Assembly (NCBI RefSeq): GCF_016887565.1
Contig: NZ_CP069396.1
Location: forward strand, 6,430,001-6,494,000
Source: Archangium violaceum
Lineage (GTDB): Bacteria > Myxococcota > Myxococcia > Myxococcales > Myxococcaceae
Reading direction: 5' to 3'
Length of the DNA: 64,000 nt
Shown: positions 661-20,611 of the stretch, piece by piece
Layout: the number at the start of each line of letters is the position of its first letter
Numbering within the stretch: position 1 is the first letter of the stretch
Notes under the pieces: generated by a model
What the model was told of the DNA's origin: nothing
Seen by the model: only the letters and a program-made list of their open reading frames with translations
Databases searched by the model: none
Position numbers and translations under genes: made by a program

Positions 661-880
661 GAGTGCCCTCCTCGGGCGTGGCAGCGAGGGGGAAGGGGAC
701 TCCTGCCACACCTGGCTGATGATGGGGTTGCGCACGGGCTCGTGCAGCGGAGGTAGACGCTCACCTGCCTGCCAGGCGAGCGCGTGCCGGTGCCCTCTAC
801 CACAACGGCTCGGCCGCCTGCCCACTCATTGCGGAGATCGCGTGTCCTCCCAGGCGCCTTCTGCGAGGATGCTCGGCCGC

Positions 881-1351
881 ATGAAGATCTGGGTCGACGC
901 CGATGCGTGTCCGGGGCCGGTACGGGACATCCTCCTGAGGGCAGCGCAGCGCCTGGGGGTGGCCACCGTCTTCGTGGCCAACAAGCGCCTGTCGCTGCCC
1001 CGCTCGGAGCTCGTCTCCACGGTGCAGGTGGGCGCCGGGCTCGACGTGGCGGACAGCTACATCGCCGCCTCGGCCCAGACCGGGGATCTCACCGTCACCC
1101 AGGACATCCCCCTCGCCGCGCTGCTCGTCCCCAAGGGCGTGGTGGTCATCGACCCGCGCGGAGAGCTCTTCAGCGAGGAGAACATCGCCGAGCGCCTCTC
1201 CGTGCGGAACTTCATGCAGGAGCTGCGCGACAGCGGCGTGATGACCGGCGGCCCCAGTGGCTTCTCCGCCCAGGATCGCCAGCAGTTCGCCGCTACCCTG
1301 GACCGCGAGCTCACCCGGCTCCTCCGAACCGTCTCGAAACCTGGACCGTGA
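881..1351 (+). CDS. UPF0178 (DUF188, YaiI/YqxD) family protein
   Basis: A 156-residue protein beginning MKIWVDADACPG, the signature start of the UPF0178 family. Acidic and Asn residues of a PIN-like nuclease fold (DADACP near residue 5, ITLAVTQDIPLA-type strand near 75, DPRGELFSEENI near 95) can be followed through the sequence. The family is thought to be nuclease-related, but no reaction is established. A GAGG at 865-868 lies at suitable distance. A second in-frame ATG at 869 overlaps that site and would add only four residues, so 881 is preferred. It is divergent from the SlyD-type gene across about 220 bases. Confidence 0.88.
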   Translation: MKIWVDADACPGPVRDILLRAAQRLGVATVFVANKRLSLPRSELVSTVQVGAGLDVADSYIAASAQTGDLTVTQDIPLAALLVPKGVVVIDPRGELFSEENIAERLSVRNFMQELRDSGVMTGGPSGFSAQDRQQFAATLDRELTRLLRTVSKPGP

Positions 1352-2112: not shown

Positions 2113-4833
2113 GTGATTCAGAGAGATTCGAGACGAGTACCCCCGCGATTCATCCGCGGTCTGACGGGATTGGGCCTGAGCGTCCTGTTGCCGTTGTGGA
2201 CGGGCACCGCGCTGGCGCTTCCCTCCGACTTCGTGAACACGCTGCGAGGGAGCAACTCCAGCGGCGGCTACTCCCGAGGCAACACGTTCCCGGCGACGGC
2301 GGTCCCCTTCGGCTTCAACTTCTGGACGCCGATGACCGATGCGAATTCGAAGAGCTGGATCTACGACTTCAACCGGAGCGCGATCCAGGCCTTCACCATC
2401 AGCCACATGCCCAGCCCCTGGATGAGCGACCGCCAGACGTTCCAGGTCATGCCCCAGTCCGGCTCGGTGACCGTGGACCGCGCGACCCGTGGCGCGGCCT
2501 TCAGCCACGCGAACGAGACCGCCAGGGCTCACTCCTACAGCGTGAAGTTCAACAACGGCATCCAGACGGAGATCGCTCCGACGGACCATGCCGCGTCCTG
2601 GCGGTTCACCTTTCCGGGCACCAGCTCCTACCTGCTGTTCGACACCGTCGATGGCGTGAACGGCTCCATCACCCTCGACAAGGCCAATGGTGTCGTCTCC
2701 GGCTACACCGACCATGCGACGGGCTGGGGACCGGCGCCCCGCATGTACTTCTACGCGAAGTTCAGCAAGGCGATCGCCGAGTCGGCGAACGTGACGGGAC
2801 AGCGCGCCGTCACCTCCTGGGTCCGCTTCAGCACCACCGCGGGCGAGAAGGTCACCATGTCGATCGCCACGTCCTTCATCAGCGTGGCCCAGGCGCAATC
2901 CAACCTGTCCCAGGAGATCGGCACGAAGAGCTTCGACACCGTCAAGCAGGAGGCCCAGGACGCCTGGAACGCCCTGCTGGGCAAGATCGAGGTGGAGGGC
3001 GCCACGGACGATCAGAAGACGATCCTCTACTCGAACATGTACCGGTCGTTCCTGTACCCCAACTCCGCCTGGGAGAACGTCAACGGCACGCCCACCTACG
3101 CCTCCCCGTACGCCAGTGGCCACCCGCTGAAGACCGGCAAGGTCTACGTCAACAACGGGTTCTGGGACACGTACAGGACCACCTGGCCGCTCTATGCGCT
3201 GCTGATCCCCACACGGACCGGCGAGATGCTCGACGGGTTCGTCAACGGCTACAAGGACGGAGGCTGGGTCACCCGCTGGTCCGCTCCGGGCTACGCCAAC
3301 ATCATGGTCGGCACCAACTCGGACGTGATCTTCGCCGATGCCTACCTCAAGGGCGTCCGCAACTTCGACGTCTCCGCGGCTTATGACTCGATGCTGCGAA
3401 ACGCGATGTCCTACAGCAGTGATCCGGCCCGGGGCCGCAAGGGCATGAATCGCTCCATCTTCCTGGGCTACACGCCGCAGGACGTCGTGGGGGAGTCCAC
3501 CTCCTGGTCCCTCGAGGGCTACCTCAACGACTTCGGCATCGCCCAGCTCGCCCAGGCCCTGGGCAGGACCGAGGACGCCCAGTACTTCCTCAACCGCTCC
3601 CTGAACTACGTCAACATCTTCTCGTCCTCCGTCGGGTTCTTCCGCGGCAAGAACTCGAACGGCTCGTGGCGGACGTCGGATGCGGACTTCAAGGCCAACC
3701 GCTGGGGCTGCGAGTACACCGAGGGCAATGCCTGGCATTACAGCGTGCTCGCTCCCCAGGACGGGCAGGGGCTCGCCAACCTCTACTTCGGCAAGAGCGG
3801 ACTGGCCAACAAGCTCGATGCCCTGTTCGCCGCTCCCCGGGATTACGACGTGGGCTGCTACGGCGGCGTCATCCACGAGATGGTCGAGGCCTATGACGTG
3901 AACATGGGTCAGTACGCCCACTCCAACCAGCCCGTGCACCACACGCTGTACATGTACAGCTATGCCGGCACGCCGTGGCGCATCCAGCAGCGCGTCCGCG
4001 ACGTCATCAACACCGGCTACCAGTCCGGTCTCGGCAACGGCTACGGCTACCTGGGCGACGAGGACAACGGCGAGATGTCCGCGTGGTACCTCTTCAGCGC
4101 CATGGGCTTCTATCCCGTCAGCATGGGACGGCCCGAGTACGCGATCGGCGCGCCGTACTTCACGAAGATGACCGTCCACCTGGAGAACGGGAAGGACCTC
4201 GTCATCAACGCCCCCAACGTCAGCAACACGAACCGGTACATCCAGAGCGTGGCCCTGAACGGGCAGGCCTATACCCGCAACTACCTGCCGCACTCGGCCC
4301 TCGTGAATGGCGCCATCCTGGACTTCAACATGGGCTCGGCCGCGACGGTCTGGGGCTCGGGCAGCGCGGACGTGCCCGTCTCCATCACCACGGGCACCGC
4401 CGTCCCGCAGCCGCTGGCCGATGTCGCCAAGGGCGGGACGATCTCCGCCAGCGGTGACAACGCGGCGAGCGGCGAGGGCACCGCGCAGGGCTTCGACGAC
4501 AACTCGCTCACGAAGTGGCTCGCCTTCCAGAGCACCCCGTGGATCCGCTACCAGCTCACCGGTGGGGCGAAGACGGTCAAGATGTACACGCTGACGTCCG
4601 CCAATGACTTCCCCGGGCGCGATCCGAAGGCGTGGACCCTCCAGGCCTCCAACGATGGGACCACCTGGGTGACGCTGGATACCCGCACCGGGCAGGACTT
4701 CCCCTGGCGCTACCAGACGCGGGCGTTCACCATCAACAACGCCACGGCCTACAGCCAGTACCGGCTGCAGATCAACGAGACCCACGGCGATTCGATCACC
4801 CAGCTGGCGGAGATCGAGCTGCTCGGGAAATAA
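2113..4833 (+). CDS. Secreted GH92 alpha-mannosidase with C-terminal F5/8-type C (discoidin) domain
   Basis: A 906-residue exported glycoside hydrolase. Residues 1-35 are a signal peptide (basic start, LGLSVLLPLWTG core, ALALP cleavage site). Family GH92 follows: SHMPSPWMSDRQ, SNMYRSFLYPN, NNGFWDTYRTTWPLY, GWVTRWSAPGY, EGNAWHY, and GDEDNGEMSAWYLFSAMG, which carries the catalytic acidic residues of the family. GH92 enzymes are calcium-dependent exo-alpha-mannosidases that trim mannan and N-glycans. Residues from about 770 form a discoidin-like carbohydrate-binding domain (ending RLQINETHGDSITQLAEIELLGK minus edge residues). The GTG start has AAAGGC-type spacing upstream. A terminator hairpin follows. 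This fits a predator or saprophyte digesting yeast or fungal mannoprotein. Confidence 0.93.
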   Translation: MIQRDSRRVPPRFIRGLTGLGLSVLLPLWTGTALALPSDFVNTLRGSNSSGGYSRGNTFPATAVPFGFNFWTPMTDANSKSWIYDFNRSAIQAFTISHMPSPWMSDRQTFQVMPQSGSVTVDRATRGAAFSHANETARAHSYSVKFNNGIQTEIAPTDHAASWRFTFPGTSSYLLFDTVDGVNGSITLDKANGVVSGYTDHATGWGPAPRMYFYAKFSKAIAESANVTGQRAVTSWVRFSTTAGEKVTMSIATSFISVAQAQSNLSQEIGTKSFDTVKQEAQDAWNALLGKIEVEGATDDQKTILYSNMYRSFLYPNSAWENVNGTPTYASPYASGHPLKTGKVYVNNGFWDTYRTTWPLYALLIPTRTGEMLDGFVNGYKDGGWVTRWSAPGYANIMVGTNSDVIFADAYLKGVRNFDVSAAYDSMLRNAMSYSSDPARGRKGMNRSIFLGYTPQDVVGESTSWSLEGYLNDFGIAQLAQALGRTEDAQYFLNRSLNYVNIFSSSVGFFRGKNSNGSWRTSDADFKANRWGCEYTEGNAWHYSVLAPQDGQGLANLYFGKSGLANKLDALFAAPRDYDVGCYGGVIHEMVEAYDVNMGQYAHSNQPVHHTLYMYSYAGTPWRIQQRVRDVINTGYQSGLGNGYGYLGDEDNGEMSAWYLFSAMGFYPVSMGRPEYAIGAPYFTKMTVHLENGKDLVINAPNVSNTNRYIQSVALNGQAYTRNYLPHSALVNGAILDFNMGSAATVWGSGSADVPVSITTGTAVPQPLADVAKGGTISASGDNAASGEGTAQGFDDNSLTKWLAFQSTPWIRYQLTGGAKTVKMYTLTSANDFPGRDPKAWTLQASNDGTTWVTLDTRTGQDFPWRYQTRAFTINNATAYSQYRLQINETHGDSITQLAEIELLGK

Positions 4834-6051: not shown

Positions 6052-7527
6052 ATGGCCGTCCGTTCCAAGACACGTGTCAAGCGAACCGCGTCCCTCCGTT
6101 CCCGCCGCAAGCCCCGGGTCGTGGTGCGGCATGATCTGACCGAGCCCGAGCCCGGTCCGCCGCTGGTGCCCGAGCTCATTCCCGATCGCCGGGAGCGCAA
6201 GCGTCAGGGCCGTGTCCTCCGCGAGAAGACACCGCGGGAGGAGCACGCCCGGTGGCAGCCCCCGGCGGACCGGCCGGACCCCATCGCGCTGCTGGAGGCC
6301 AGCAACAGCGGCCGGCTCCCCTCGCTCGTGCCCATCCGCCATGCGCGCATGCTCGAGGATCCGTTCGCCTTCCTGCGCGGCTCGGCCATCATCATGGCGA
6401 ACGACCTGGCGCATACCCCCAACACGGGCGTCAAGGTGCAGGCCTGCGGGGACGCGCACCTGGCCAACTTCGGCATGTACGCCACCCCCGAGCGCAATGT
6501 CGTCTTCGACGTCAACGACTTCGACGAGACGCTCCCCGCGCCCTGGGAGTGGGATCTCAAGCGGTTGGTGGCGAGCATCTGGGTCGCGGGCCGCTGCGCC
6601 TGTGGCGCGACGGAAGCCGGGTGCGAGGAGGCGGTGGCCGCCTGCGTGCGCAGCTACCGGCGCTGGATGGGGCGGATGTCCCGCTGGTCCTTCCTCGACG
6701 TGTGGTACGCGCGCGTGGACGCCGAGTCCCTGCTGGAGACGATCCACCAGCAGGAGCGGGGGAGCGCGGAGAGGACACTCGCCCAGGCGCGCCGGCGCAC
6801 CCAGCTGGCCACCCTGCCCAAGCTCACCGAGCTGCGCGAGGGCCGCCGCTGCATCATCCATGATCCGCCCCTCATCGTGCGCACGCCGCGGGAGCACGCG
6901 GAGGAGCTGGCCGAGGTGCTCCAGGTGATGGCGGGGGGTTACCTGTCCTCGCTGCAGGGGGACCGCGGCACGCTGGTGCGGCGCTACCAGACGGTGGACG
7001 TGGCGCGGAAGGTGGTGGGCGTGGGCAGCGTGGGGACGCGCTGCTACGTCGCGCTGCTGCTCGGCGCGCATGCGGAGGATCCGCTCTTCCTCCAGGTGAA
7101 GGAGGCGGGGCCGTCCGTGCTGGAGCCCTTCGCCGGCAAGAGCACCTACGCCCAGGCCGGGCAGCGGGTGGTGGAGGGACAGCGGCTGATGCAGGCCGCC
7201 AGCGACATCTTCCTCGGCTGGTGCCAGGTGGGCGGGCGTGACTTCTACGTGCGCCAGTTGCGCGACATGAAGGGCTCCATCGACGTGGAGCGGCTGTCCC
7301 CCCGCGGACTGCGCGAATACGCGTCGATGTGTGGCTGGGCGCTGGCCCGGGCCCATGCGCGCGGGGGAGACGCGGCCCTGCTGCGGGGATACCTCGGCCG
7401 GGGCGACGTGTTCGACCAGGCCCTGTGCCGCTTCGCGCGGGCCTACGCCGACCAGACCGAGCGGGACTTCGCCGCCTTCCAGAAGGCGGTGCGCGGCGGC
7501 CGGCTCCAGGCACACGAGGACGCATGA
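6052..7527 (+). CDS. DUF2252 family protein
   Basis: A 491-residue DUF2252 protein. After a basic N-terminal tail (residues 1-70) comes RHARMLEDPFAFLRG, then CGDAHLANFGMY and VNDFDET, which look like the H/G-D-x-H-x-x-N and D-F-D motifs of aminoglycoside-phosphotransferase-like kinases, followed by WEWDLKRLV. The family is uncharacterised; a small-molecule or protein kinase-like fold is inferred from those motifs only. Length is normal for the family. The 3' end converges on the cupin-like gene with a 33-base gap. Confidence 0.85.
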   Translation: MAVRSKTRVKRTASLRSRRKPRVVVRHDLTEPEPGPPLVPELIPDRRERKRQGRVLREKTPREEHARWQPPADRPDPIALLEASNSGRLPSLVPIRHARMLEDPFAFLRGSAIIMANDLAHTPNTGVKVQACGDAHLANFGMYATPERNVVFDVNDFDETLPAPWEWDLKRLVASIWVAGRCACGATEAGCEEAVAACVRSYRRWMGRMSRWSFLDVWYARVDAESLLETIHQQERGSAERTLAQARRRTQLATLPKLTELREGRRCIIHDPPLIVRTPREHAEELAEVLQVMAGGYLSSLQGDRGTLVRRYQTVDVARKVVGVGSVGTRCYVALLLGAHAEDPLFLQVKEAGPSVLEPFAGKSTYAQAGQRVVEGQRLMQAASDIFLGWCQVGGRDFYVRQLRDMKGSIDVERLSPRGLREYASMCGWALARAHARGGDAALLRGYLGRGDVFDQALCRFARAYADQTERDFAAFQKAVRGGRLQAHEDA

Positions 7528-8466: not shown

Positions 8467-8608
8467 TCGGAAGGTATACAGCACGCGAAGTGCTTGATAC
8501 CCTCACTGGGTCGGGCTGGACTGATTTCCTGGTCTTTGCTACAAGCTTCCCGTTTACCCATCATCCGAGAATCACCAGCGTGAGCCTCCCCCGCGCTGTA
8601 CCAAGACC

Positions 8609-11600
8609 ATGAGTACAGTCGATGTCACCGCGGTCGAGCGGCTCCTCGAGCAGGATCCGGCGGGCTTCTACACGGCGATGGATGGCGCCACGCGCGGGCG
8701 CTACATCCGGGCCTGCGAGCAGTTGGCGGAGTGGTCGCAGCGGGAGCCGGCCGAGGTCGCACGAGAGGCCGTCCTGCTCGCGCAAGCCCCTCCCAGCGAC
8801 GATGTCCGCGGACGCCACGTCGGGACGTACCTGATCGCCGAGGGCCGGCCCCAACTGGAGGCCCGCCTGGGCTGCCGCGTCCCGTCGCGGGAGCGGCTCT
8901 CCCGGGTTGCCCACCGCCACGCCGCCACCGCCTACGTTGGAACGCTCGTCGCGCTCACGGCCCTGTCGCTCGCCGGAGTGGAGCGGCTGCTCGCCTCGCG
9001 AGGGATGGAGCCGCTCCACCGCGTGCTGCTGCTCGTCCTCCTGGTCTTCCCGGTGCTGGAGATCCTCCAGGAGCGCGTCGACAAGCTGCTCGCCCGCCTG
9101 GTGAAGGACGCGGGGCCACTGCCCAGACTGGAGCCCGCCCGGGTGCTGGCGCCGGACACCCGGACCCTGGTCGTCACCCCGCTGCTCATCACGAGCGCGG
9201 AGGACATCGACCAGCAGTTGCGCAAGCTGGAGAACAACTATCTGGGCAACATCTCGCCCGACCTGCTCTTCGCGCTGCTGACCGACTTCGGCGACGCGCA
9301 GGACAAGGAGCTGCCGGGTGAGCGCGAGCTGGTCGAGCGGCTGGAGCACGGCCTGCGCGAGCTCAACGCGCGGCATGGGTTCACGGACGCACCGCGCTTC
9401 CTGCTGCTGCACCGCGAGCGGCGCTGGAACCCGGTCGCGCGCCGCTGGATGGGCTGGGAGCGCAAGCGCGGCAAGCTCGAGGAGTTCAACCGGCTGGTGC
9501 TGGGGGCGCGCGACACGAGCTACACGGGCCCCGTGCCGGACGTGGTGCACACCGTGCGCTATGTCATCACGCTCGACGCGGACAACCAGCTCATCCCCGG
9601 TAGCGCTGCGCTCCTGGTCGCCACGCTCCACCACCCCCTCAACCGGGCGAAGTTCGACGCGAGCGGCCAGCGGGTGATCGCCGGCTACTCGATGCTCCAG
9701 CCGACGATCCAGGAGAGCCCCTCCCGGTCCGAGTGGCTCGCCTCGGGCGGGTGGCCCGTCTCCATCGTGTCGCGGGAGCAGAAGGCGCCGCCGGACCAGG
9801 CCATGCGCGCCCTGGGCCAGAACCTCTTCGGGGTAGGGGAGTTCTTCGGCAAGGGCATCTACGACGTGGCCGCGTTCACGCGCAGCCTCGAGGGGCGCAT
9901 CCCCGAGAACATCGTCCTCAGCCACGACAAGCTGGAGGGGATGTTCTCGCGCGTCGCGTTCGCCTTCGACGTCACGCTGCTCGAGGGCCGGCCCAGGGAT
10001 CTCGCGAGCATGGGGCGCATCTGGCACCGGTGGATTCGGGGCGACTGGCAGCTCCTGCCCTGGCTCTTGCCGTGGGTGCCGACCCGGAGCGGCCGTTGGG
10101 TCCCCAATACCCTGTCGCTGCTCGACCGGTGGAAGCTGTTGGCCGACCTCCGCACGAGCCTGGGCCGCCCGATGATGCTCCCCACGTTCGCCTACGGGTG
10201 GCTGTTGCTGCCCGCTGACAGCGTGGGGGCCTGGACGCTCGGTGTGTCGCTCTGGTGCTGCCGCTACCCGCTCTTCTACGCCTCCGCGGCCACGCTGCGC
10301 ACCGCGTTGCGCAAGTCGCGCGAGGAGTCGCCCGCCGCCGCCCTGGGCCACATCGCCTACATGGTGCCGCGCATCCTCCGCAACGCCGCCATGGACCTGG
10401 GGGTCCTCGTCCCGCTCTCCGGCATCGTGCTCGATGCCATCGTCCGCGCCCTGTACCGGCTCGCGTTCGACCGGACGCGGATCCTCGACTGGACCACGCA
10501 TGCGCAGACGCGCCGCAAGGTGGACGGGCTCTCGTCGTTCGCGCTGCCCGAGGTGCGGGCGGGGTTGGTGCTGGCGCTCGGGTGGGTGGCCGTGGTGGCC
10601 GTGTTCAACCCGCGGTCGCTGCCCTGGGCCTGTCCGCTGCTGCTGGCGTGGACTCCCTTCGTCGTGCTCATCCGCCAGGGCGGTGGGGTGGCCACTCCAC
10701 CGCTGGTGCTGGAGTCGGAGGAGCTCGCCCGGCTGCGCGCCCTGGCCCGGCGCTCGTGGGCCCTGTACGAGCACATGGGCCCGACAGGCCAGGAGTTGCC
10801 CTGGCGCATGCTCGCGGAGAACGGCGCGCCCACCGAAGCGGCGGAGACCCGGCCGGAGGACCTCGCCCTCTGGCTCGTGGCGCCGCTGAGTGCCTATCAC
10901 CTGGGCTACCTCGGGTTGGACGGGCTGGGCTCCCGGCTCGAGGCCTCGCTCACCACCCTCGAGCGGCTCGAGCGCCACCGTGGGCACCTCTTCGAGCGGT
11001 ACGACGCGCGCACCGGGCTGCCCCTGGCTCCCCGGCGCATCTGCGTGGCCGGCAGCGGCATGCTGGCCGCGGCACTCACGGTGCTCGAGAGCGGACTGCA
11101 CGCCGTGAGCAAGGCCCCCCATGGCACCGGACCCCTGCGCCAGGGCGTGGCCGATACGCTCGCGGTCCTCGGCGAGGAGGCCGGGCTCGCACCGCCCTCG
11201 GCACGGCGCGAGCGGTTGGCGGGAGTGCTCCGCCTGTTGCGCGAGTGGGTGGCGGATGGCTCGCTGCCGCTCGACGAGGTGCTCGCGCGCATCCAGCGCC
11301 AACGGGCGAGCCTGGCGGCCGAGCGCATCGCCCACCTCAACGCGGTGCCTGCCGAGGCGGCGTCCCTGGCCACGTGGTGGGACCGCTTCGAGCACCAGCT
11401 CTCCCTGCTGGAGGGAGCCCGCCAGATGGAGGCACCCACCCCGTTGGCGCTGGAGCGGCTCGCGGGCGTCGAGGCGCGGGTGAGGGCCCTGCGCGAGGCC
11501 ATGCGCTTCGCGTTCCTCGTCGAGTCCGGTTCGTCCGAGGAGGCCCACGCCGGACGGTTCGCCTCGGGGGCGCTGCTCGCCGCGTTCATGGCGATCGCGC

Positions 11601-12157
11601 GGCGCGAGGTCCCTCTCCAGCACTGGCTGACGCTCGTCGAGTCGGATGAGCGGCCGCGCGAGGAGGAGGCCGTCGTGGCCAGGCGGGCGGCGCTCGGTGA
11701 GCACCTGCCGCCGACGCTCTTCCTCTGGTTTCCCCCGGCGACGCTGCTGGGGCACTCCGCGAACGCCGCGCTCGAGGCCGACGTCGGTGCGGCGCGCGGC
11801 CTGCCCTGGGGCCTGGATGAGCCGCCGCGCGGCATCCAGGGGGACCCGCCCGTCACCGCCCTGCCGCATCTGTCGGTGCTCGCGCTGCGCTTCAGGACCC
11901 GGGACGCGCTGGCCAATCTCTCTCGCCTGCTGGAGCTGGGGGCCCTGGGGCGTTATGGACTCTTCGACTCGGTCCGCGTTTCCACGGCGGCCCCGGAGCC
12001 AGCGGTACGGCGTCAGTTCACCTGCCGGTACCAGGGTATGGTGCTCGCGACCGTGACCAACCTGGCGTGCGACGACATCCTGATCCAGCACTTCCACCGG
12101 CACCGGGAGACCGCGTGGGTGGAAGGGCTCATCTACGAGACGAAGAGCGCCGCATGA
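8609..12157 (+). CDS. Short NdvB-like glucan synthase: GT84 plus glycoamylase-like domain, no GH94
   Basis: A 1182-residue membrane protein aligning by eye with the first part of cyclic beta-1,2-glucan synthases (NdvB/ChvB/Cgs). After two N-terminal membrane segments (about 105-125 and 137-152) comes the GT84 domain: RTLVVTPLLITS, LTDFGDA, RRWNPVARRWMGWERKRGK, LDADNQL at 322-328 (DxD), LFGVGEFFGKGIYDV, LSHDKLEG and HRWIRGDWQLLPWLLP at 473. Further helices lie at about 520-560 and 590-690. The remainder (about 710-1182) resembles the glycoamylase-like/cyclisation region (RLERHRGHLFERYDA; RYQGMVLATVTN near the end). Classical enzymes are about 2,800 residues and end with a GH94 phosphorylase domain that sets chain length; it is absent here. 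It overlaps the next gene by four bases (ATGA). Confidence 0.82.
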   Translation: MSTVDVTAVERLLEQDPAGFYTAMDGATRGRYIRACEQLAEWSQREPAEVAREAVLLAQAPPSDDVRGRHVGTYLIAEGRPQLEARLGCRVPSRERLSRVAHRHAATAYVGTLVALTALSLAGVERLLASRGMEPLHRVLLLVLLVFPVLEILQERVDKLLARLVKDAGPLPRLEPARVLAPDTRTLVVTPLLITSAEDIDQQLRKLENNYLGNISPDLLFALLTDFGDAQDKELPGERELVERLEHGLRELNARHGFTDAPRFLLLHRERRWNPVARRWMGWERKRGKLEEFNRLVLGARDTSYTGPVPDVVHTVRYVITLDADNQLIPGSAALLVATLHHPLNRAKFDASGQRVIAGYSMLQPTIQESPSRSEWLASGGWPVSIVSREQKAPPDQAMRALGQNLFGVGEFFGKGIYDVAAFTRSLEGRIPENIVLSHDKLEGMFSRVAFAFDVTLLEGRPRDLASMGRIWHRWIRGDWQLLPWLLPWVPTRSGRWVPNTLSLLDRWKLLADLRTSLGRPMMLPTFAYGWLLLPADSVGAWTLGVSLWCCRYPLFYASAATLRTALRKSREESPAAALGHIAYMVPRILRNAAMDLGVLVPLSGIVLDAIVRALYRLAFDRTRILDWTTHAQTRRKVDGLSSFALPEVRAGLVLALGWVAVVAVFNPRSLPWACPLLLAWTPFVVLIRQGGGVATPPLVLESEELARLRALARRSWALYEHMGPTGQELPWRMLAENGAPTEAAETRPEDLALWLVAPLSAYHLGYLGLDGLGSRLEASLTTLERLERHRGHLFERYDARTGLPLAPRRICVAGSGMLAAALTVLESGLHAVSKAPHGTGPLRQGVADTLAVLGEEAGLAPPSARRERLAGVLRLLREWVADGSLPLDEVLARIQRQRASLAAERIAHLNAVPAEAASLATWWDRFEHQLSLLEGARQMEAPTPLALERLAGVEARVRALREAMRFAFLVESGSSEEAHAGRFASGALLAAFMAIARREVPLQHWLTLVESDERPREEEAVVARRAALGEHLPPTLFLWFPPATLLGHSANAALEADVGAARGLPWGLDEPPRGIQGDPPVTALPHLSVLALRFRTRDALANLSRLLELGALGRYGLFDSVRVSTAAPEPAVRRQFTCRYQGMVLATVTNLACDDILIQHFHRHRETAWVEGLIYETKSAA

Positions 12158-13995
12158 CGGAGCCAGACGTCGTGAAAGGACCCGGGACCGGTCGCTGGTC
12201 CGTCGTCGCGGAGCGGGTGGCCTCGCTCAAGAACCTCCTGCCGCTGCTGCGCATGGTCTGGGCCTCGGGCCGTGGGGTGGTGGTGGCGAACCTCGTGCTG
12301 CGCCTGGTCGCGGCGCTGGTGCCCGTGGCCGTGCTGGCCGTGGCGCGATGGATCGTCGATGGCGTGGTGGCCGCCGTGGGAGCCCACCAGGGGATGACGC
12401 CGCAGCTGGCCCGGCTGGTCGCGCTCGAGTTCGTCCTGGCCGCGGTGGGGGCGCTCCTCGGGCGCCTCATCCAATACTTCAACATCCTGCTCGCGGAGAA
12501 GTACACGCGGCACGCGAGCCTCCAGTTGATGGACCACGCCTCGCGGCTCGACCTGGCGACCTACGAGGATCCCTCCTTCTACGACCGGATGGAGCGGGCG
12601 CGTGTGCAGGCCACGGATCGGATCGTGACGGTCGAGATGATCGCCCGCTTCCTGCAGCAGGCGGTCACCACGGTGAGTCTTGGCATCGGCATCCTGGTGT
12701 TCTCCCCGTGGCTGTTGTTGGGCATCGTCATCTGCCTGGTGCCGGCGGCCGTGGCCGAGGCGCGCTTCGGGGCCCGCATCTACGCGCTCAACTTCCGGCT
12801 CACGCCCAAGCGACGCGAGCTCGACTACCTGCGCCAGCTGGGTGCGAGCAAGGAGAGCGCCAAGGAGCTGAAGATCTTCGGCCTGAGCCCGTTCCTCCGG
12901 CACCGCTATGAGCAGTTGTCGGGTGAGCTGCTGGGCGAGCTGGTGACGGTGTGGCGGCGGGCCATCGGCGGCCTGTCCATGCTGTCGGTCCTGGGGGTGC
13001 TCGGCTACTACGGCGCGTACGCGTTCGTCGTCTACGAGGCGGCACGCGGCGAGCTGAGCGTGGGCTCTCTGGCGTTCCTGACCGGTGCGATCGTCGCCGC
13101 GAACCGGACGTTCCAGGAGATGTTCTCCACCGCCGTGGGGATCGCCGATCAGTCCCTGTACCTCAAGGATCTGCTGAGCTTCTTCTCCCTGAAGCCGACC
13201 ATCCGGTCCGGTGAACGGGCGCTCAAGGTCCCCCGCCCGATACGCCAGGGTTTCGAGTTCCGGAATGTGACCTTCAAGTACCCGGGCCGGGTGGAGCCAG
13301 TCCTCCAGGGGGCGAGCTTCCACTTGAGGCCGGGAGAGCGGCTCGCGCTGATCGGGGAGAACGGCCAGGGCAAGACGACGATCGTCAAGCTGCTGATGCG
13401 GCTCTACGATCCGACCGAGGGGCAGATCCTGCTCGATGGCGTGGATCTGCGCGAGTACGACATCGAGGACCTGTGGCGCGAGATGGGCGTCATCTTCCAG
13501 GACTTCGCCCGCTACGACATGACGGCCGCCGACAACATCGCGGTGGGGCGCATCGAGCAGCGGGGTGACCGGGCGCTCATCGAGGAGTCGGCGCGCAAGA
13601 GCCTGGCCAACACGGTGATCGACCGTCTGCCCGGAGGGTACGAGCAGATCCTCGGCCGCCGCTTCGAAGGGGGCGTCGATCTCTCGGGAGGAGAGTGGCA
13701 GAAGCTCGCGCTCTCGCGGGCGTACATGCGGGACGCGCAGGTGCTCGTCCTGGATGAGCCGACGGCGGCGCTGGACGCGCGAGCCGAGCTGGATGTGTTC
13801 ACCCACTTTGGCGAGCTGGCGCGGGGCAAGATGGCCCTGCTGATCTCGCATCGCTTCTCCACCGTGCGGATGGCGGACCGCATCCTCGTCCTCACGGGGG
13901 GAAGAATCGTCGAGGAGGGCAACCACGAGCAGCTCATCACGCTGGGGGGGCGCTACTCGACGATGTACGAGCTACAGGCATCACGCTACCGTTGA
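12154..13995 (+). CDS. ABC exporter, fused permease and ATPase (NdvA/MsbA-like)
   Basis: A 613-residue half-transporter. Six membrane helices occupy roughly residues 30-330 (for example VVVANLVLRLVAALVPVAVLA). The nucleotide-binding domain has Walker A GENGQGKTT, Q-loop FQDFARYDMT, signature LSGGEWQKLALSRA, Walker B VLVLDEPTAALD and the H-loop ISHRFSTV. It would work as an inner-membrane homodimer. Its ATG overlaps the stop of the glucan synthase-like gene, so the two are translationally coupled. Cyclic glucan exporters NdvA/ChvA have the same layout and size (about 590 residues), which makes glucan export the most likely job by context. Substrate cannot be read from sequence. Confidence 0.9.
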   Translation: MTEPDVVKGPGTGRWSVVAERVASLKNLLPLLRMVWASGRGVVVANLVLRLVAALVPVAVLAVARWIVDGVVAAVGAHQGMTPQLARLVALEFVLAAVGALLGRLIQYFNILLAEKYTRHASLQLMDHASRLDLATYEDPSFYDRMERARVQATDRIVTVEMIARFLQQAVTTVSLGIGILVFSPWLLLGIVICLVPAAVAEARFGARIYALNFRLTPKRRELDYLRQLGASKESAKELKIFGLSPFLRHRYEQLSGELLGELVTVWRRAIGGLSMLSVLGVLGYYGAYAFVVYEAARGELSVGSLAFLTGAIVAANRTFQEMFSTAVGIADQSLYLKDLLSFFSLKPTIRSGERALKVPRPIRQGFEFRNVTFKYPGRVEPVLQGASFHLRPGERLALIGENGQGKTTIVKLLMRLYDPTEGQILLDGVDLREYDIEDLWREMGVIFQDFARYDMTAADNIAVGRIEQRGDRALIEESARKSLANTVIDRLPGGYEQILGRRFEGGVDLSGGEWQKLALSRAYMRDAQVLVLDEPTAALDARAELDVFTHFGELARGKMALLISHRFSTVRMADRILVLTGGRIVEEGNHEQLITLGGRYSTMYELQASRYR

Positions 13996-14000
13996 GTCCC

Positions 14001-15677
14001 ATGCGCGCTCTCCCTTCCCATTCCCCTGGAGCGTTCCTCCTCTCGCGGCACTGGGCCGCGGTCCTCCTGGCGGGGGTGCTCGCGGCCTCCGTCTCCCAGG
14101 CCGCCGAAGCCGGGCCCGTGGCCAGCGCGACCACCGCGTCGCCTCCCGGCTGGAAGACCGACTGGGCGCGCGGCGCCGTCTTCTACGAGGTCTTCGTCCG
14201 CAGCTTCCAGGACTCGGATGGTGACGGCGTTGGCGACCTGAAGGGCCTCACCTCGCGGCTCGACTACCTGAAGGAGCTGGGCGTCGACGCCATCTGGCTG
14301 ATGCCCATCTTCGAGTCGCCCAGCTACCACGGCTACGACACGGAGGATTACGAGAACATCAACTCCGACTACGGCACCAACGCCGACTTCGAGGCGTTCG
14401 TCCGCGAGGCGCACGCACGCGGCATGCGTGTCATCCTCGACTTCGTCATCAATCACACCTCCGCGGAGCACCCGTGGTTCATCCAGTCCGCGTCCTCGCG
14501 CAGCTCGCCCAAGCGGGACTGGTACATCTGGCGCGAGGATGATCCGGGTTGGATCCAGCCCTTTGGTGACAAGCGCACCTGGCACAAGAAGAACGGCTCG
14601 TACTTCTACGGTGTCTTCTGGGAGGGCATGCCGGACCTGAACCTGCGCAACCAGGAAGTGCGCGCGGAGATGAAGCGGGTGACGCGGTTGTGGTTGGACC
14701 GGGGCGTGGACGGCTTCCGGCTGGACGCCGCGCGCCACATGATCGAGACGGGCCCTGGCAAGGAGGGTCAGAACAACACCCCCGATACGCACGCCTACTG
14801 GAAGGATCTCTCCGACTACGTCCGGAGCATCAAGCCCGAGGCGCTGCTCATCGGTGAGATGTGGGACACGACTCCCGCCATCGCCGCCTACTACGGCTCC
14901 ACCCGCGAGGTCCGCGGCGGCGACGAGCTGCCGATGACCATCAACTTCCCGCTCTCCGACGCCGTCCGCGAGGCGGTGAAGACGGGCGAGACCGTTCCCC
15001 TCGCTGCCAAGCTGGAGGAGATCCATCGCCTCTACCCGGCGGGCGTGCTGGACGGCACCTTCCTGACCAACCACGACCAGCCCCGCCTGGCCGCGCTGCT
15101 CGACAATGATCCGGCGAAGCTGAGGAGCGCCGCCGCCCTCCTGCTCACGCTGCCGGGCTCGCCGTTCCTGTACTACGGAGAGGAGCTCGGAATCTGGAAC
15201 ACCATCGGGGGAGGGGACGTGCGCCAGCGCACGCCCATGCCGTGGGATGGCTCGCCCAACGCCGGCTTCATCACCAACAGGCCCTGGTACTACATCACCC
15301 GAGGTAGGCCCTGGGCCCCCCTCGCCCCCGGCCACGAGACGGCCAACGTCGCCACCGAACAGGCGGATCCGGACTCGCTGCTGTCGCACTATCGCCGGCT
15401 CACGCGCCTGCGGCGGGACTCACGGGCGATTCGTGAGGGCACGCTGAAGCTGCTCACGCCGACGGTGGGCAGCTCGCCCGTGTTCGCCTTCACGTTGGAG
15501 GCGGGCTCGGACAAGGTGCTCGTCCTCCACAACCTGGGCAAGAGCCCCGCCGAGGTGACGTACCCGTACAAGGTGACGGAGACCCTGTTCGGAAAGGACG
15601 TGGGGGGTCAGAAGCTCGAGACCGGGTGGACCGGCACGCTCCCCGCCCAATCGAGCGTGGTGCTGCGAATCCAGTAG
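14001..15677 (+). CDS. Secreted GH13 alpha-amylase-family enzyme
   Basis: A 558-residue enzyme with a signal peptide (about 1-35, AAVLLAGVLAAS core, AEA cleavage). The GH13 barrel is complete: DAIWLMPIFESPSYHGYD, VILDFVINHTS, catalytic Asp242 in GFRLDAARH, Glu286 in LLIGEMWD, and the transition-state Asp359 in LTNHDQPR. MPDLNL replaces the QPDLN of oligo-1,6-glucosidases, a hallmark of neopullulanase-like or intermediary subfamilies, so specificity for malto-oligosaccharides or branched alpha-glucan is likely but open. The ATG at 14001 is chosen because it starts the signal peptide; a TTG at 13992 overlapping the ABC stop is the alternative. It appears to be the third gene of the transcription unit. 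Confidence 0.9.
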   Translation: MRALPSHSPGAFLLSRHWAAVLLAGVLAASVSQAAEAGPVASATTASPPGWKTDWARGAVFYEVFVRSFQDSDGDGVGDLKGLTSRLDYLKELGVDAIWLMPIFESPSYHGYDTEDYENINSDYGTNADFEAFVREAHARGMRVILDFVINHTSAEHPWFIQSASSRSSPKRDWYIWREDDPGWIQPFGDKRTWHKKNGSYFYGVFWEGMPDLNLRNQEVRAEMKRVTRLWLDRGVDGFRLDAARHMIETGPGKEGQNNTPDTHAYWKDLSDYVRSIKPEALLIGEMWDTTPAIAAYYGSTREVRGGDELPMTINFPLSDAVREAVKTGETVPLAAKLEEIHRLYPAGVLDGTFLTNHDQPRLAALLDNDPAKLRSAAALLLTLPGSPFLYYGEELGIWNTIGGGDVRQRTPMPWDGSPNAGFITNRPWYYITRGRPWAPLAPGHETANVATEQADPDSLLSHYRRLTRLRRDSRAIREGTLKLLTPTVGSSPVFAFTLEAGSDKVLVLHNLGKSPAEVTYPYKVTETLFGKDVGGQKLETGWTGTLPAQSSVVLRIQ

Positions 15678-15678
15678 C

Positions 15679-16266
15679 TCACGTCCGGAGCAGGCGCTCG
15701 ACGTCCTCGGGGGTGTCCACGTCCAGCTCACCTCCGGGCAGCGGTACCACGGCCACCCGGCCCGGCTCCTTCGTGAGCAGCGGCCGTGCCCCCGCGCTGG
15801 CCGGAAGCGCCTCCAGCTCGGCGAAGAGGCTCCGGTCGAAGAGCGCGGGCACTCCCACCGTTCCCGCGTACCCCGAGGCGATGATGGGCTGGCCCCGCTC
15901 CTGGTGGGTCCGCGTCAGTGCCATCAGGTGCTCGGCTGTCACCGCGGGCTGATCGCACACCATCAGCACCACCGCCTCCAGCGACGGTTCCCCGCGCAGT
16001 GCTTCCATCCCCAGGCGCAGCGAGCCGCCCATGCCCTCCCGCCAGCGCGCGTTCTCCACCACGCGCACGGGCAGTCCCTCCAGCTCCGCGCGGTGGGCCT
16101 CGGCCTCGGCTCCCAGCACCACCACCACCGGGTGGCAGCCCGAGGCCAGCGCCGTCTCGGCCGCGCGCCTCAGCAGGCTCTTGCCGTTCCAGCGCAGCAA
16201 CTGCTTGGAGTGCCCCAACCGCGTGGAGCCTCCAGCCGCCAGCAGCACCAGTCCCGTGGTGGCCAT
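15679..16266 (-). CDS. mocA: MocA/MobA-like molybdenum cofactor cytidylyltransferase
   Basis: A 195-residue nucleotidyltransferase with the family start LVLLAAGGSTRLGHSKQLL (nucleotide-binding G-G-x-S-x-R-x-G and the following Lys), VCDQPAVTAEHL as the metal-binding acidic motif, and a C-terminal DVDTPEDVERLL. It should transfer CMP to molybdopterin to give the MCD cofactor needed by xanthine-oxidase-family enzymes. It is the last gene of the Pao operon, starting three bases after the chaperone gene stops, which matches the need of a PaoABC-type enzyme for MCD. MobA (GMP transfer) is the alternative but less likely in this setting. It ends one base from the opposing GH13 gene. Confidence 0.85.
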   Translation of the reverse strand: MATTGLVLLAAGGSTRLGHSKQLLRWNGKSLLRRAAETALASGCHPVVVVLGAEAEAHRAELEGLPVRVVENARWREGMGGSLRLGMEALRGEPSLEAVVLMVCDQPAVTAEHLMALTRTHQERGQPIIASGYAGTVGVPALFDRSLFAELEALPASAGARPLLTKEPGRVAVVPLPGGELDVDTPEDVERLLRT

Positions 16267-16269
16267 GCC

Positions 16270-17403
16270 TCAGCTTCCCGAAGGCCCGCCGTGGATGGGA
16301 CCCTTGCGGTCCTTGAGGAAGCCGCCACTCCGTCCCGCCATGATGGCGCGCACCTCGGCGATGATGGAGACGGCGATCTCCTCCGGGCCCTCGGCGCCCA
16401 CGTCCAGTCCGGCCGGCCCGTACACCCGCGCGCGCTGGGCCTCGGTGCCCGCCCGTCCCTCGCGAGCCAGCTCCTCCAGCATGCGCTCGGTGCGGCTGCG
16501 CGGGCCCAGCACGCCGATGTAGCGCACCGGCGAGTGCAGCAGCGCCTCCAGCAGCGTGCGATCCGTCTCGTAGCCGTGGCTCATGATGACGGCCGCCGTG
16601 CGCGGGCCCAGCACCACCGCCGAGAGCGCCGTCTCCGGAGGGCTGCCCACCACCAGGTCCGCCCGGCCCGCCAGCCGCGCGCTCAGCTCCTGCGGCCGGC
16701 GCGACACCACCGTCACGTGCCAGCCCACCGCTCGCGCCGCCTCCACCAGTGGCACCACGTCATGCCCGCTGCCGAACACCACCAGCGGCTGTGGCGGTTG
16801 CACCACCTCGAGGAAGAGCTCCAGCTTCCCGCCCTCTACATCGTAGGTGCGCGTGCGCGAGCCGCCCTCGGCCAGCACGGCCCTCGCGTCCGCCTCCAGT
16901 CCCGGCACGGCCTCCCGAAGCCCCGGCGAGGCCCGCACCTGTCCGTCCGCGTCCAGCAGCAGCCGTGCCGCGAGCTCCACCGGGGACGTGCCCTCGGTGT
17001 GCAGCACCGTGGCCATCAGCCCCGCCTGGCGCCGCCGCACGCAGCCGGAGACGAACTCCACCGGGTTGAGCGCGTCGTCCGGCCGGAGCCGCTCCAGCAG
17101 CAGCTCCACCCGGCCTCCGCACCCGGTGCGCAGGAACACCGCCTCGTCCTCGGACAGCGAGTCGAAGACGAGGCGTGCCGGCCTGCCCTCGGAGGTGAGC
17201 CAGAAGGCCTTGCGCAGCAGCTCCCGCTCCAGGCAGCCGCCGCTGACACTGCCCGCGTGCCAGTGCTCCTCCGTCATCAACATGCGGGCCCCGGGGCGCC
17301 GGTACGCCGAGCCGGTGACTCCCACCACCGTGGCCAGCACACAGGGAGCGCCCTGCGCGCGCAGGGCCTCCCACGACTCCATCAGGGCCCGCGATTCCTT
17401 CAC
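16270..17403 (-). CDS. paoD: XdhC/PaoD-family molybdenum cofactor insertion chaperone
   Basis: A 377-residue XdhC-family protein. The N-terminal XdhC/CoxI segment reads ATVVGVTGSAYRRPGARML and SVSGGCLERELL; the C-terminal Rossmann part reads LVVFGSGHDVVPLVEAARAVGW, ...VIMSHGYETDRTLLEALL and YIGVLGPRSR. Members bind and sulfurate the molybdenum cofactor and hand it to the catalytic subunit in the cytoplasm before Tat export. The start is a GTG overlapping the stop of the catalytic-subunit gene (GTGA), so translation is coupled. At 377 residues it is somewhat longer than E. coli PaoD. The gene name is by position and family. Confidence 0.88.
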   Translation of the reverse strand: MKESRALMESWEALRAQGAPCVLATVVGVTGSAYRRPGARMLMTEEHWHAGSVSGGCLERELLRKAFWLTSEGRPARLVFDSLSEDEAVFLRTGCGGRVELLLERLRPDDALNPVEFVSGCVRRRQAGLMATVLHTEGTSPVELAARLLLDADGQVRASPGLREAVPGLEADARAVLAEGGSRTRTYDVEGGKLELFLEVVQPPQPLVVFGSGHDVVPLVEAARAVGWHVTVVSRRPQELSARLAGRADLVVGSPPETALSAVVLGPRTAAVIMSHGYETDRTLLEALLHSPVRYIGVLGPRSRTERMLEELAREGRAGTEAQRARVYGPAGLDVGAEGPEEIAVSIIAEVRAIMAGRSGGFLKDRKGPIHGGPSGS

Positions 17404-19613
17404 AGCAGCTTGTCCAGGGTGATGGGGAGGTCCCTCACGCGCTTGCCGGTGGCGTGGAAGACTGCGTTGGCCACCGCGGCGGCGACGCCCGTGGTGCCAA
17501 TCTCTCCAATGCCCTTCACCCCCATGGGGTTGACGTGCGGATCCTTCTCGTCGACGAAGTGCACGTCGATGTCGGGCACGTCCGCCTGCACGGGCACGTG
17601 GTAGTCGGCCAGGTCCGCCGTCATCACCCGTCCCGTCCTCGGGTCGCGCAGCGTCTCCTCGGTGAGCGCCATGCCCAGGCCGAAGATGACGCCGCCGATG
17701 ATCTGGCTGCGCGCCGTCTTGGGGTTGAGGATGCGGCCGGCTCCCATGGCGGACACGATGCGGCTGACGCGCACCGTGCCCAGCGCCTCGTCCACACGCA
17801 CCTCGACGAAGTGGACGCCGAAGGCGTGCGAGGAGTACTTGCGCTCCTCCGGGAGGGGCGCCGCGTCGGCCTTGCCCTCCACGTGGGGCAGACCCTGGCG
17901 CGCCAGCAGCTGGGCATACGTCTCGCCCCGGCTCTTGTCCTTGAGCGAGAAGAGCCGTCCAGCCTCGGCGTCCACGTCCTTCTCGGCCAGCCCGTGCAGT
18001 GGCGAGGCCTTGTCCGCCACGGCGAGCTGCACCAGCTTGCGGCGCGCCTCGATGGCGGCGTTGCGGATGGCGGGCGTGGCGGAGGCCGTGGTGGACGAGC
18101 CACCCGCGAGCGGACCAGGCGGCAGCACCGTGTCACCCATCTCCGCGCGCACCTTCTCCGCGGGCAGCTTCAGCTCCTCGGCGGCCACCTGCGTGAAGAC
18201 GGTGTAGGCGCCGGTGCCCAGGTCGGAGCCGCCGCACTGCACCACCGCGGTGCCATCCGCCATCACCCGCGCCAGGGCGGAGGCGGGGCTGCGGAAGGCG
18301 GGGAAGGTGGCGGTGCCCATGCCCCAACCGATGAGCACGTCCCCGTCGCGCATCGAGCGCGGCTGCAGCGAGCGCTTCTTCCAGCCGAAGCGCTCGGCTC
18401 CCCAGCGGTAGCACTCCAGCAGCGACTTGCTGGACCAGGGGCGGCCATCCTCCGGATCCTTGTCCGCGTGGTTGATGCGCCGCAGCTCCAGCGGATCCAT
18501 CTTCAGCGCGTACGCCAGCTCGTCCATGGCGCTCTCGAGCGCATAGGTGCCGGGCGCCTCACCCGGGCCACGCATGAAGGTGGGGGTGGACGTGCTCAGC
18601 CGGACGATCTGCTGCGAGGCCGTCACGTTGGGGCACGCGTACAGCATGCCGCTGATGTTGGAGAAGGGCTCGTTGAAGCCGTCGTTCTCGGACGTCTCCG
18701 AGTAGCCCGTGTGGCGGATGGCGGTGAGCTTGCCCTTGGCGTCCGCGGCCAGCTCCACCTTCTGCAGCGTCTTGGGCCGGTAGCCCACGAGGGTGAACAT
18801 CTGCCGGCGGCTGAGCACCAGCTTCACCGGGCGGTTCACGGCCTTGGCGGCCATGATGCTCAGGATGAGGTGGGACCAGGGCAGCGCCTTGCACCCGAAG
18901 CCTCCACCCACGTAGCGCGAGATGATGCGGATGTTCTCCTGCGGCAGCCCGATGAGCCCGGCGATGAACTGGCGCGTGAAGAAGACGCCCTGGTTGGCGT
19001 CGTACACGGTGAGGTGCTCGGGGTCGTCCCACACCGCGATGGAGGCGTGGGGCTCCATGGGGTTGTGGTGCTCGGTGGGGGTGCGGTAGGTGGCCTCCAC
19101 GCGCACCTTGGCCGCCGCCAGCGCGGCCGCCGCGTCCCCGCGGGTGTGGCCCGGGGGCGGGCCGAACTGGGCCGGGGCCGGCTGCCCGTTCTCCAGCTCC
19201 GCCTCCATGTCCAGCTTGGCGGGCTTGTCCACGTAGAAGGTGCGCACCAGCGAGGCGGCGTGCGTGGCGCGCTCCAGCGTGTCGGCCACCACCAGGGCGA
19301 TGGGCTGGCCGTTGTAGAGCACCTCGCTGTCCTGCATCACCGTGAGCCGGGGCAGGATGGGCACGGCGGCGAACTTGTCCACGCCCGGCAGCTTGGGCGC
19401 GTTGCGTGGGGTGAGCACCGCGAGCACGCCGGGCGCCTTCTCCGCCTCCGCCGTCTGCATGCGCAGCACGCTGCCGCGCGGCACCGTGCTCTGCACGATG
19501 ACGGCGTAGGTCATGTTGGGCGGGTTGAACTCCGCGGCGTACTGCGCCTGGCCCGTCACCTTCAGCCGGCCGTCCACCCGATCCAGGGGCTGGCCGATGA
19601 TCTTGTCACTCAT
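17400..19613 (-). CDS. paoC: Molybdopterin-binding catalytic subunit of aldehyde oxidoreductase, PaoC-like
   Basis: A 737-residue xanthine-oxidase-family large subunit, close to the length of E. coli PaoC. The start MSDKIIGQPLDRVDGRLKVTG is typical. Other markers are GGGFGCKALPW, FMRGPGEAPGTYALESAMDELA (cofactor-binding loop), GSSTTASATPAIRNAA and the C-terminal GIGEIGTTGVAAAVANAV, which contains the catalytic glutamate. It has no signal of its own and should be co-exported with the Tat-bearing small subunit. Its ATG overlaps the stop of the FAD subunit by four bases. Substrate is inferred to be aldehydes, as for PaoABC; xanthine is less likely because the whole gene set matches Pao. Confidence 0.92.
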   Translation of the reverse strand: MSDKIIGQPLDRVDGRLKVTGQAQYAAEFNPPNMTYAVIVQSTVPRGSVLRMQTAEAEKAPGVLAVLTPRNAPKLPGVDKFAAVPILPRLTVMQDSEVLYNGQPIALVVADTLERATHAASLVRTFYVDKPAKLDMEAELENGQPAPAQFGPPPGHTRGDAAAALAAAKVRVEATYRTPTEHHNPMEPHASIAVWDDPEHLTVYDANQGVFFTRQFIAGLIGLPQENIRIISRYVGGGFGCKALPWSHLILSIMAAKAVNRPVKLVLSRRQMFTLVGYRPKTLQKVELAADAKGKLTAIRHTGYSETSENDGFNEPFSNISGMLYACPNVTASQQIVRLSTSTPTFMRGPGEAPGTYALESAMDELAYALKMDPLELRRINHADKDPEDGRPWSSKSLLECYRWGAERFGWKKRSLQPRSMRDGDVLIGWGMGTATFPAFRSPASALARVMADGTAVVQCGGSDLGTGAYTVFTQVAAEELKLPAEKVRAEMGDTVLPPGPLAGGSSTTASATPAIRNAAIEARRKLVQLAVADKASPLHGLAEKDVDAEAGRLFSLKDKSRGETYAQLLARQGLPHVEGKADAAPLPEERKYSSHAFGVHFVEVRVDEALGTVRVSRIVSAMGAGRILNPKTARSQIIGGVIFGLGMALTEETLRDPRTGRVMTADLADYHVPVQADVPDIDVHFVDEKDPHVNPMGVKGIGEIGTTGVAAAVANAVFHATGKRVRDLPITLDKLL

Positions 19614-20596
19614 GAGCGACCTCCCAGCGTCGTCAGGGCGCGCACGACGAGCCGCCGCGCCAGCTCCACCTTGAAACCATTGTGCTCGCGGGGACGGGCG
19701 CCCTCGAGCGCCGCCTCCGCCGCCGCCTTGAACACCTCGGGCGAGGGGGCCTGGCCAGCCAGCTTCTGCTCGGCGCCCAGGGCGCGCCACGGCTTGGTGC
19801 CCACGCCGCCCAGCGCCAGCCGGGCCTCGCGGATGCGTCCGCCCTCCACGTCGAGCACCGCGGCCACCGAGGCCAGGGCGAAGGCGTAGGAGGCGCGATC
19901 GCGCACCTTCATGTACAGCGAGCGGCGCGCGGCCGGCAGGGCCGGCAGGTCCACCGAGAGCACCAGCTCCCCGTGCTCCAGGGCCGTCTCGCGGTGGGGC
20001 GTGTTGCCCGGCAGCAGGTGCAGGTCGGTGAAGGGCAGGGTGCGCTCGCCCTTGGGTCCCTTGACGCGCACGGTGGCGCCCAGGGCGGCCAGGGGCACGC
20101 ACATGTCCGAGGGGTGCGTGGCGATGCACGCGTCGCTGGTGCCCAGCACCGCGTGGCCGCGGTTGATGCCCTCGAGCGCGGAGCAGCCCGAGCCGGGCTC
20201 GCGCTTGTTGCAGGGGGTGGCCGTGTCGCGGAAGTAGGAACAGCGGGTGCGCTGCAGGATGTTGCCGCCCACGGTGGCCATGTTGCGGATCTGCCCCGAG
20301 GCGCCCGCGAGCAGGGCCTGGGAGAGCACCGGGTAGCGCTCGCGGATGAGCGGGTGGTGGGCCACGTCGCTGTTGCGCGCGAGGGCGCCGAGGCGGATGC
20401 CGCCGTCGGGGAGCTCCTCGATCTTCGCCAGGGGAAGCTTGCGCACGTCCACCAGCGCGGCGGGGTTCTCCACCCCCAGCTTCATCAGATCCAACAGGCC
20501 CGTTCCGCCGGCCAGGAAGGAGGCCTCGGGCGCGCGGCTGACGCTGTCGACGCTGGAGTCCAACTCCAGCGACTGCACGTAGTTGAAGGGATTCAT
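19610..20596 (-). CDS. paoB: FAD/[4Fe-4S]-binding subunit of aldehyde oxidoreductase, PaoB-like
   Basis: A 328-residue medium subunit: the FAD-binding N-terminus (FLAGGTGLLDLMKLG, QIRNMATVGGNILQR) and CO-dehydrogenase-flavoprotein C-terminus. The segment TRCSYFRDTATPC followed by a third Cys in PGSGC is the extra iron-sulfur cluster loop that distinguishes PaoB/YagS from ordinary xanthine dehydrogenase FAD subunits. The sequence then matches the subfamily closely (GINRGHAVLGTSDACIATHPSDM). It passes electrons from the molybdenum subunit via FAD. The ATG at 20594-20596 lies 15 bases after the small-subunit stop. Confidence 0.92.
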   Translation of the reverse strand: MNPFNYVQSLELDSSVDSVSRAPEASFLAGGTGLLDLMKLGVENPAALVDVRKLPLAKIEELPDGGIRLGALARNSDVAHHPLIRERYPVLSQALLAGASGQIRNMATVGGNILQRTRCSYFRDTATPCNKREPGSGCSALEGINRGHAVLGTSDACIATHPSDMCVPLAALGATVRVKGPKGERTLPFTDLHLLPGNTPHRETALEHGELVLSVDLPALPAARRSLYMKVRDRASYAFALASVAAVLDVEGGRIREARLALGGVGTKPWRALGAEQKLAGQAPSPEVFKAAAEAALEGARPREHNGFKVELARRLVVRALTTLGGRS

Positions 20597-20611
20597 GCTC
20601 GGGACCTGGGG

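Follow-up and report, generated by a model that had tools for sequence, protein, structure and literature searches.

The closest described relatives of the protein considered here are cyclic-glucan synthases, in which four cooperating activities are carried by one polypeptide. In AtCgs, which combines GT84, GH189 and GH94 (structures 8rf0, 8rf9, 8rfe and 8rfg), the GT84 domain elongates a glucan attached to Y694, and the Y694A substitution abolishes in vivo function with loss of growth rescue (PMC10901819). The same study reports that AtCgs loses function when truncated after the cyclase domain, and that its TM bundle forms no export channel, the product being exported by a separate ABC transporter (described there and in the Cgt paper that it cites). 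For TiCGS, cyclisation is described as very low in the E1356A variant (PMC10834661). In the openly available papers found, so far as consulted, we met no description of a GT84 protein without GH94, and none of the other titles pointed to one.

The stretch of Archangium violaceum DNA analysed here (the window, 64,000 nucleotides) holds an intact open reading frame at 8609..12157 (+), running from ATG to TGA, which encodes a short GT84 protein with a pseudo-cyclase domain and without GH94, of 1182 aa versus about 2,800 in AtCgs. The motifs TLDADNQL, SHDKLEG and HRWIRGDWQ are present. In phmmer searches against the PDB the protein matches AtCgs (8rf9/8rf0, E~1e-127) over AtCgs residues ~304-1520, with homologous N-terminal scaffold, TM helices, GT84 and cyclase-like domain, and its residues 701-1167 match the isolated TiCGS cyclisation domain 8wy1. 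Homology to AtCgs stops at the end of the cyclase domain, and the ~1300-residue GH94 part is missing. The N-terminal scaffold (NTD) is also shortened, ~300 residues of the full-length form being absent: upstream of the L13 column there are 12 residues in the window protein versus about 300-430 in 14 of the 15 full-length proteins. A Pfam-A scan of the protein gave no match at E<=1 and an NCBIfam scan nothing meaningful, and the GH94 profiles PF06165 and PF17167 found no match anywhere in the 13.2-Mb single-contig host genome. The reading frame, the phmmer matches and the genome-wide profile search thus agree with an initial annotation of this DNA, which had described kept GT84 motifs, an end at 1182 residues and no GH94; the absent N-terminal residues and the lost catalytic residues of the cyclase (see below) are additions to that observation. 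A long antisense ORF across the gene, at 8561-12103 (-), was judged a high-GC artefact, and a whole-protein AlphaFold prediction built on 5 aligned sequences was discarded for its poor quality (mean pLDDT 45, pTM 0.34).

Among 195 Myxococcota genomes, 30 give a match. Short genes number 12 and are spread across 10 genomes, all in one Myxococcota family; the remaining matches are either fragments or full-length genes, most frames measuring 2,500-2,950 aa, and among the Myxococcota matches listed short and full-length forms never share a genome. The 11 relatives, from nine other genomes, are 51-61% identical to the window protein, and the 12 short proteins are monophyletic with respect to seven full-length ones (SH-aLRT 100). 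In 11 of the 12 the C-terminus lies 4-6 residues past one shared column; the twelfth gene is cut by a contig end, and its C-terminus therefore falls outside this comparison. The common column indicates that the short form is not a broken gene, and together with the relatives it bears out the earlier view that this is no simple truncation. Since the truncation of AtCgs kills its function, the short form must moreover differ from it in more than length.

Beyond Myxococcota the distribution was sampled lightly. In a GTDB-wide contig scan, C-terminal patterns that recover fewer than half of the known short proteins hit Archangium, Pyxidicoccus and Corallococcus alone. Searching plasmids by tblastn gave no match at >=60% identity, and the eight plasmid regions inspected all contain long forms of 2,464-2,972 aa. 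Full-length cyclic-glucan-synthase genes occur on plasmids of E. coli, Klebsiella, Enterobacter and Pantoea; on an IncF conjugative E. coli plasmid (L070) such a gene adjoins hprR, msrPQ and hiuH. Three short relatives (L036, L037 and L038) seemed to reach further at the N-terminus, by 260-410 aa, but these stretches were rejected as antisense reading of a GT1 gene that lies on the opposite strand.

Catalytic positions reported for AtCgs (PMC10901819) and TiCGS (PMC10834661) and in a review (PMC11842490) were followed through an alignment of the 12 short proteins with 15 full-length ones, eight of which are plasmid-borne Proteobacteria synthases. In the GT84 catalytic domain of the window protein (residues ~165-500, 9101..10108, +, assigned by homology to the AtCgs GT domain), D226, D323, D325, D440, R474 and W475 correspond to AtCgs D527, D624, D626, D739, R773 and W774. 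These six residues, covering the UDP-binding Asp, the catalytic base and the RW motif, are retained in all 12 short and all 15 full-length proteins, and no other large domain is as well conserved within the short clade as GT84 (67% identical). The loop homologous to IF1 (residues ~384-402, 9758..9814, +; PMC10901819) is tyrosine-free, AtCgs Y694 aligning with P395. Across the alignment the priming tyrosine is found in 15 of 15 full-length proteins versus none of the 12 short ones, so the short proteins need another acceptor. Because this tyrosine has gone too, the loss of GH94, on which the initial annotation had centred, is not the main point.

The degenerate cyclase (GH189-like) domain occupies residues ~700-1182 (10706..12154, +) and can still be matched to 8rf9 and 8wy1. 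At the acid/base position (TiCGS E1356, AtCgs E1300; PMC10834661, PMC11842490) the window protein has G987 (codon 11567..11569, +), and the glutamate is present in 15 of 15 full-length versus 0 of 12 short proteins. The nucleophile (TiCGS E1442, AtCgs E1386) is likewise present in every full-length protein; among the short ones it is kept only in the window, as E1071 (11819..11821, +), and its loop is deleted in most of them. The His-His pair that tunes the nucleophile in GH189 (TiCGS H1536-H1537) is conserved in all 15 full-length proteins versus none of the 12, and is replaced by R1140-Y1141 (12026..12031, +) in the window protein, whose E1031 aligns with TiCGS E1400. The cyclase insert (window 836-945) has only 27% of its positions filled across the short clade and the C-terminal half of the domain 78%, while the C-terminal tail, 1146-1180, is strongly conserved (70% identity). 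With the acid/base Glu and His-His lost in all 12, this region is no functional cyclase that has simply become shorter. The glycoamylase-like part noted in the initial annotation is indeed shortened and homologous to 8wy1, but its catalytic acids, once checked, proved to be lost apart from the single nucleophile, a dismantling that had been overlooked. The cyclase remnant with its conserved tail is likely structural.

It is improbable that the cyclase part is active by altered chemistry and yields a cyclic or transglycosylated glucan of another size. The glutamates at 1071 and 1031 and the match of the domain to 8rf9 and 8wy1 would suit such an activity, but the acid/base residue and His-His are missing throughout the clade, no other short member has the nucleophile, and the corresponding TiCGS variant has very low activity (PMC10834661). 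Still less probable is a functionless, decaying remnant of a full-length synthase: the cyclase part does erode, with large deletions, but the frame is open in 12 of 12 genes with a shared C-terminus, the catalytic residues of the well-conserved GT84 are invariant, and the window-type member is strictly paired with its exporter. Conservation of GT84 while the cyclase erodes argues instead that the polymerase is under selection, with priming, ring closure and length control gone. The idea that GH94 and cyclase are supplied in trans by another gene, giving an ordinary cyclic glucan, found no point in its support and is already contradicted by the genome searches: PF17167 hits each of the three full-length control genomes but none of the 10 short-form genomes, and no genome listed has both forms. 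A split-off GH94 gene and loss of GT84 catalytic residues, the two outcomes that the initial annotation had set against its own proposal, were therefore both looked for, with no such gene in 10 of 10 genomes and no such loss in 12 of 12 proteins.

We consider it about an even chance that the short protein is a re-purposed glucosyltransferase which adds glucose to a separate acceptor, giving a non-cyclic product that is then exported. We infer activity, linkage, acceptor and export as follows. The protein would be a derived cyclic-glucan synthase pared to its glucosyltransferase, whose GT84 domain would act on the inner side of the cytoplasmic membrane, using UDP-glucose to add glucose to a non-reducing end, with a linkage that, from the family, is probably beta-1,2. 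It should be unable to prime itself on tyrosine, to close rings by known GH189 chemistry or to trim through GH94; without these steps, one or more glucoses would most likely be added to a separate acceptor and the product would be non-cyclic. The simplest acceptor would be external and probably already glycosylated or lipid-like, and the cyclase-like remainder may serve as a scaffold or acceptor-binding platform. As the TM bundle in this family, where known from AtCgs, forms no export channel, the product would leave through the coupled ABC exporter.

This exporter, MsbA/ChvA-like with fused membrane and ATPase domains, is encoded directly downstream at 12154..13995 (+), and its gene and the GT84 gene share an ATGA stop/start overlap at 12154..12157 (+; likely ATG at 12154, TGA at 12155-12157), which upholds the coupling seen earlier. 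Orthologues of the exporter occur in exactly seven of the 195 Myxococcota genomes (E<=1e-150), always immediately following a short GT84 gene, with the ATGA overlap in five of the seven pairs; the surroundings of the seven full-length Myxococcota synthases examined yielded no related exporter. In Archangium lansinium (L033, 7147-8996) the orthologue lies in two overlapping frames of 458 and 173 aa, from a frameshift or an assembly error. The protein is nearest in profile to MsbA and belongs to the same superfamily as NdvA/ChvA, and the pairing of synthase and exporter recalls ndvB-ndvA; it does match the TIGR01192 (ChvA) and PRK13657 profiles, but far below their cut-offs (174.5 bits for TIGR01192, cut-off 585.4), and scores 219.2 bits against NF010178 (cut-off 733).

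The main rival to the separate-acceptor reading starts from this pairing: a free linear beta-1,2-glucan, periplasmic and of osmoregulatory type, would be started de novo from UDP-glucose and secreted by the ABC exporter, as the cyclic form is by NdvA/ChvA. The intact GT84 residues, the coupled exporter always standing beside a short GT84 gene, its sub-threshold ChvA-type matches and the absence of an NRPS neighbour at four of the 12 loci (the window, L031, L032 and L039) all speak for it. However, known GT84 synthesis is tyrosine-primed (PMC10901819), and de novo initiation would thus be new; 12 loci in only one family are unlike a general osmotic function; and the neighbours of the relatives would be left unexplained. 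We regard this alternative as rather unlikely.

Those neighbours are of several kinds. Giant NRPS or PKS/NRPS genes adjoin eight of the 11 relatives (L033-L038, L040 and L041), and five of these eight loci lack the orthologous exporter and have another ABC exporter instead; the three second-type exporters scanned against NCBIfam all pass the cut-off of TIGR01194 (cyclic-peptide), and close homologues of them stand at the remaining two loci. Macrolide-type GT1 glycosyltransferases lie beside four relatives, and a CmlA-type beta-hydroxylase beside two, at one of which a GT87 is also found. Peptide exporter and tailoring glycosyltransferases taken together are hard to explain otherwise than by a natural-product acceptor, which the relatives' neighbourhoods indicate at least as strongly as a free linear glucan. 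Nevertheless, the short-form genomes are rich in NRPS, with at least 40-69 scored condensation domains each, and the eight loci represent only about four independent lineages, so some adjacency is expected by chance, which is not negligible. Furthermore, the four loci without NRPS genes nearby imply that a peptide acceptor is not general.

Within the reading of a glucosyltransferase acting on a separate acceptor, the acceptor in many relatives would probably be a lipopeptide or its first sugar, in view of the adjoining GT1 enzymes, cyclic-peptide exporters and NRPS genes, and in the NRPS-linked members the lipopeptide could plausibly be primed by the GT1 enzyme. A more specific scheme, possible but tentative, is that a nonribosomal lipopeptide receives its first sugar from GT1, on which the short GT84 then builds a beta-1,2-gluco-oligosaccharide before ABC export, an external primer replacing the tyrosine. 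For the window member, whose GT84 gene has no NRPS genes near it, a lipid, a sugar or a free-glucan product are equally possible. The scheme shares with the macrolide-type GT1 enzymes OleI and MGT, which act in self-immunity or tailoring, the idea of a sugar placed on a natural product that is then exported by an ABC transporter; unlike them, GT84 is membrane-bound with a GT2-like fold, and we know of no GT84 enzyme acting on natural products. If external priming is correct, it would define a class of glucan-decorated lipopeptides and predict that myxobacterial lipopeptide clusters include a glycosylation step so far unrecognised, easily overlooked because the protein matches no Pfam family. 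In any case, the short clade shows that evolution can keep the polymerase and yet dispense at once with primer, ring closure and length control, and the action of GT84 on a foreign acceptor becomes a directly testable question.

Some further genes around these loci deserve mention. At L034 (7198-8640), the short GT84 gene is adjoined by an AHH-nuclease toxin-like gene, after which comes an Imm11 immunity-like gene. The giant NRPS cluster at L033, L054 and L055 (G062:C1 9086000-9126000) starts with a fatty-acyl-AMP-ligase-like domain and has frames of ~9,134 and ~6,758 aa with a P450 between them. In the window, a gene five bases after the exporter stop (14001..15677, +) codes for a GH13 alpha-amylase-family protein whose N-terminus resembles a signal peptide; its membership of the GT84-exporter unit is doubtful, as it was not seen beside the relatives. 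Upstream are a GH92 (alpha-mannosidase family) gene with an F5/8 C-type domain (2113-4833) and a gene for a DUF2252 protein (6052-7527; strong match, E 6e-148), and a molybdenum hydroxylase operon at 15679-20954 encodes a MobA-like protein, an XdhC-family maturation factor and a PaoC-like large subunit.
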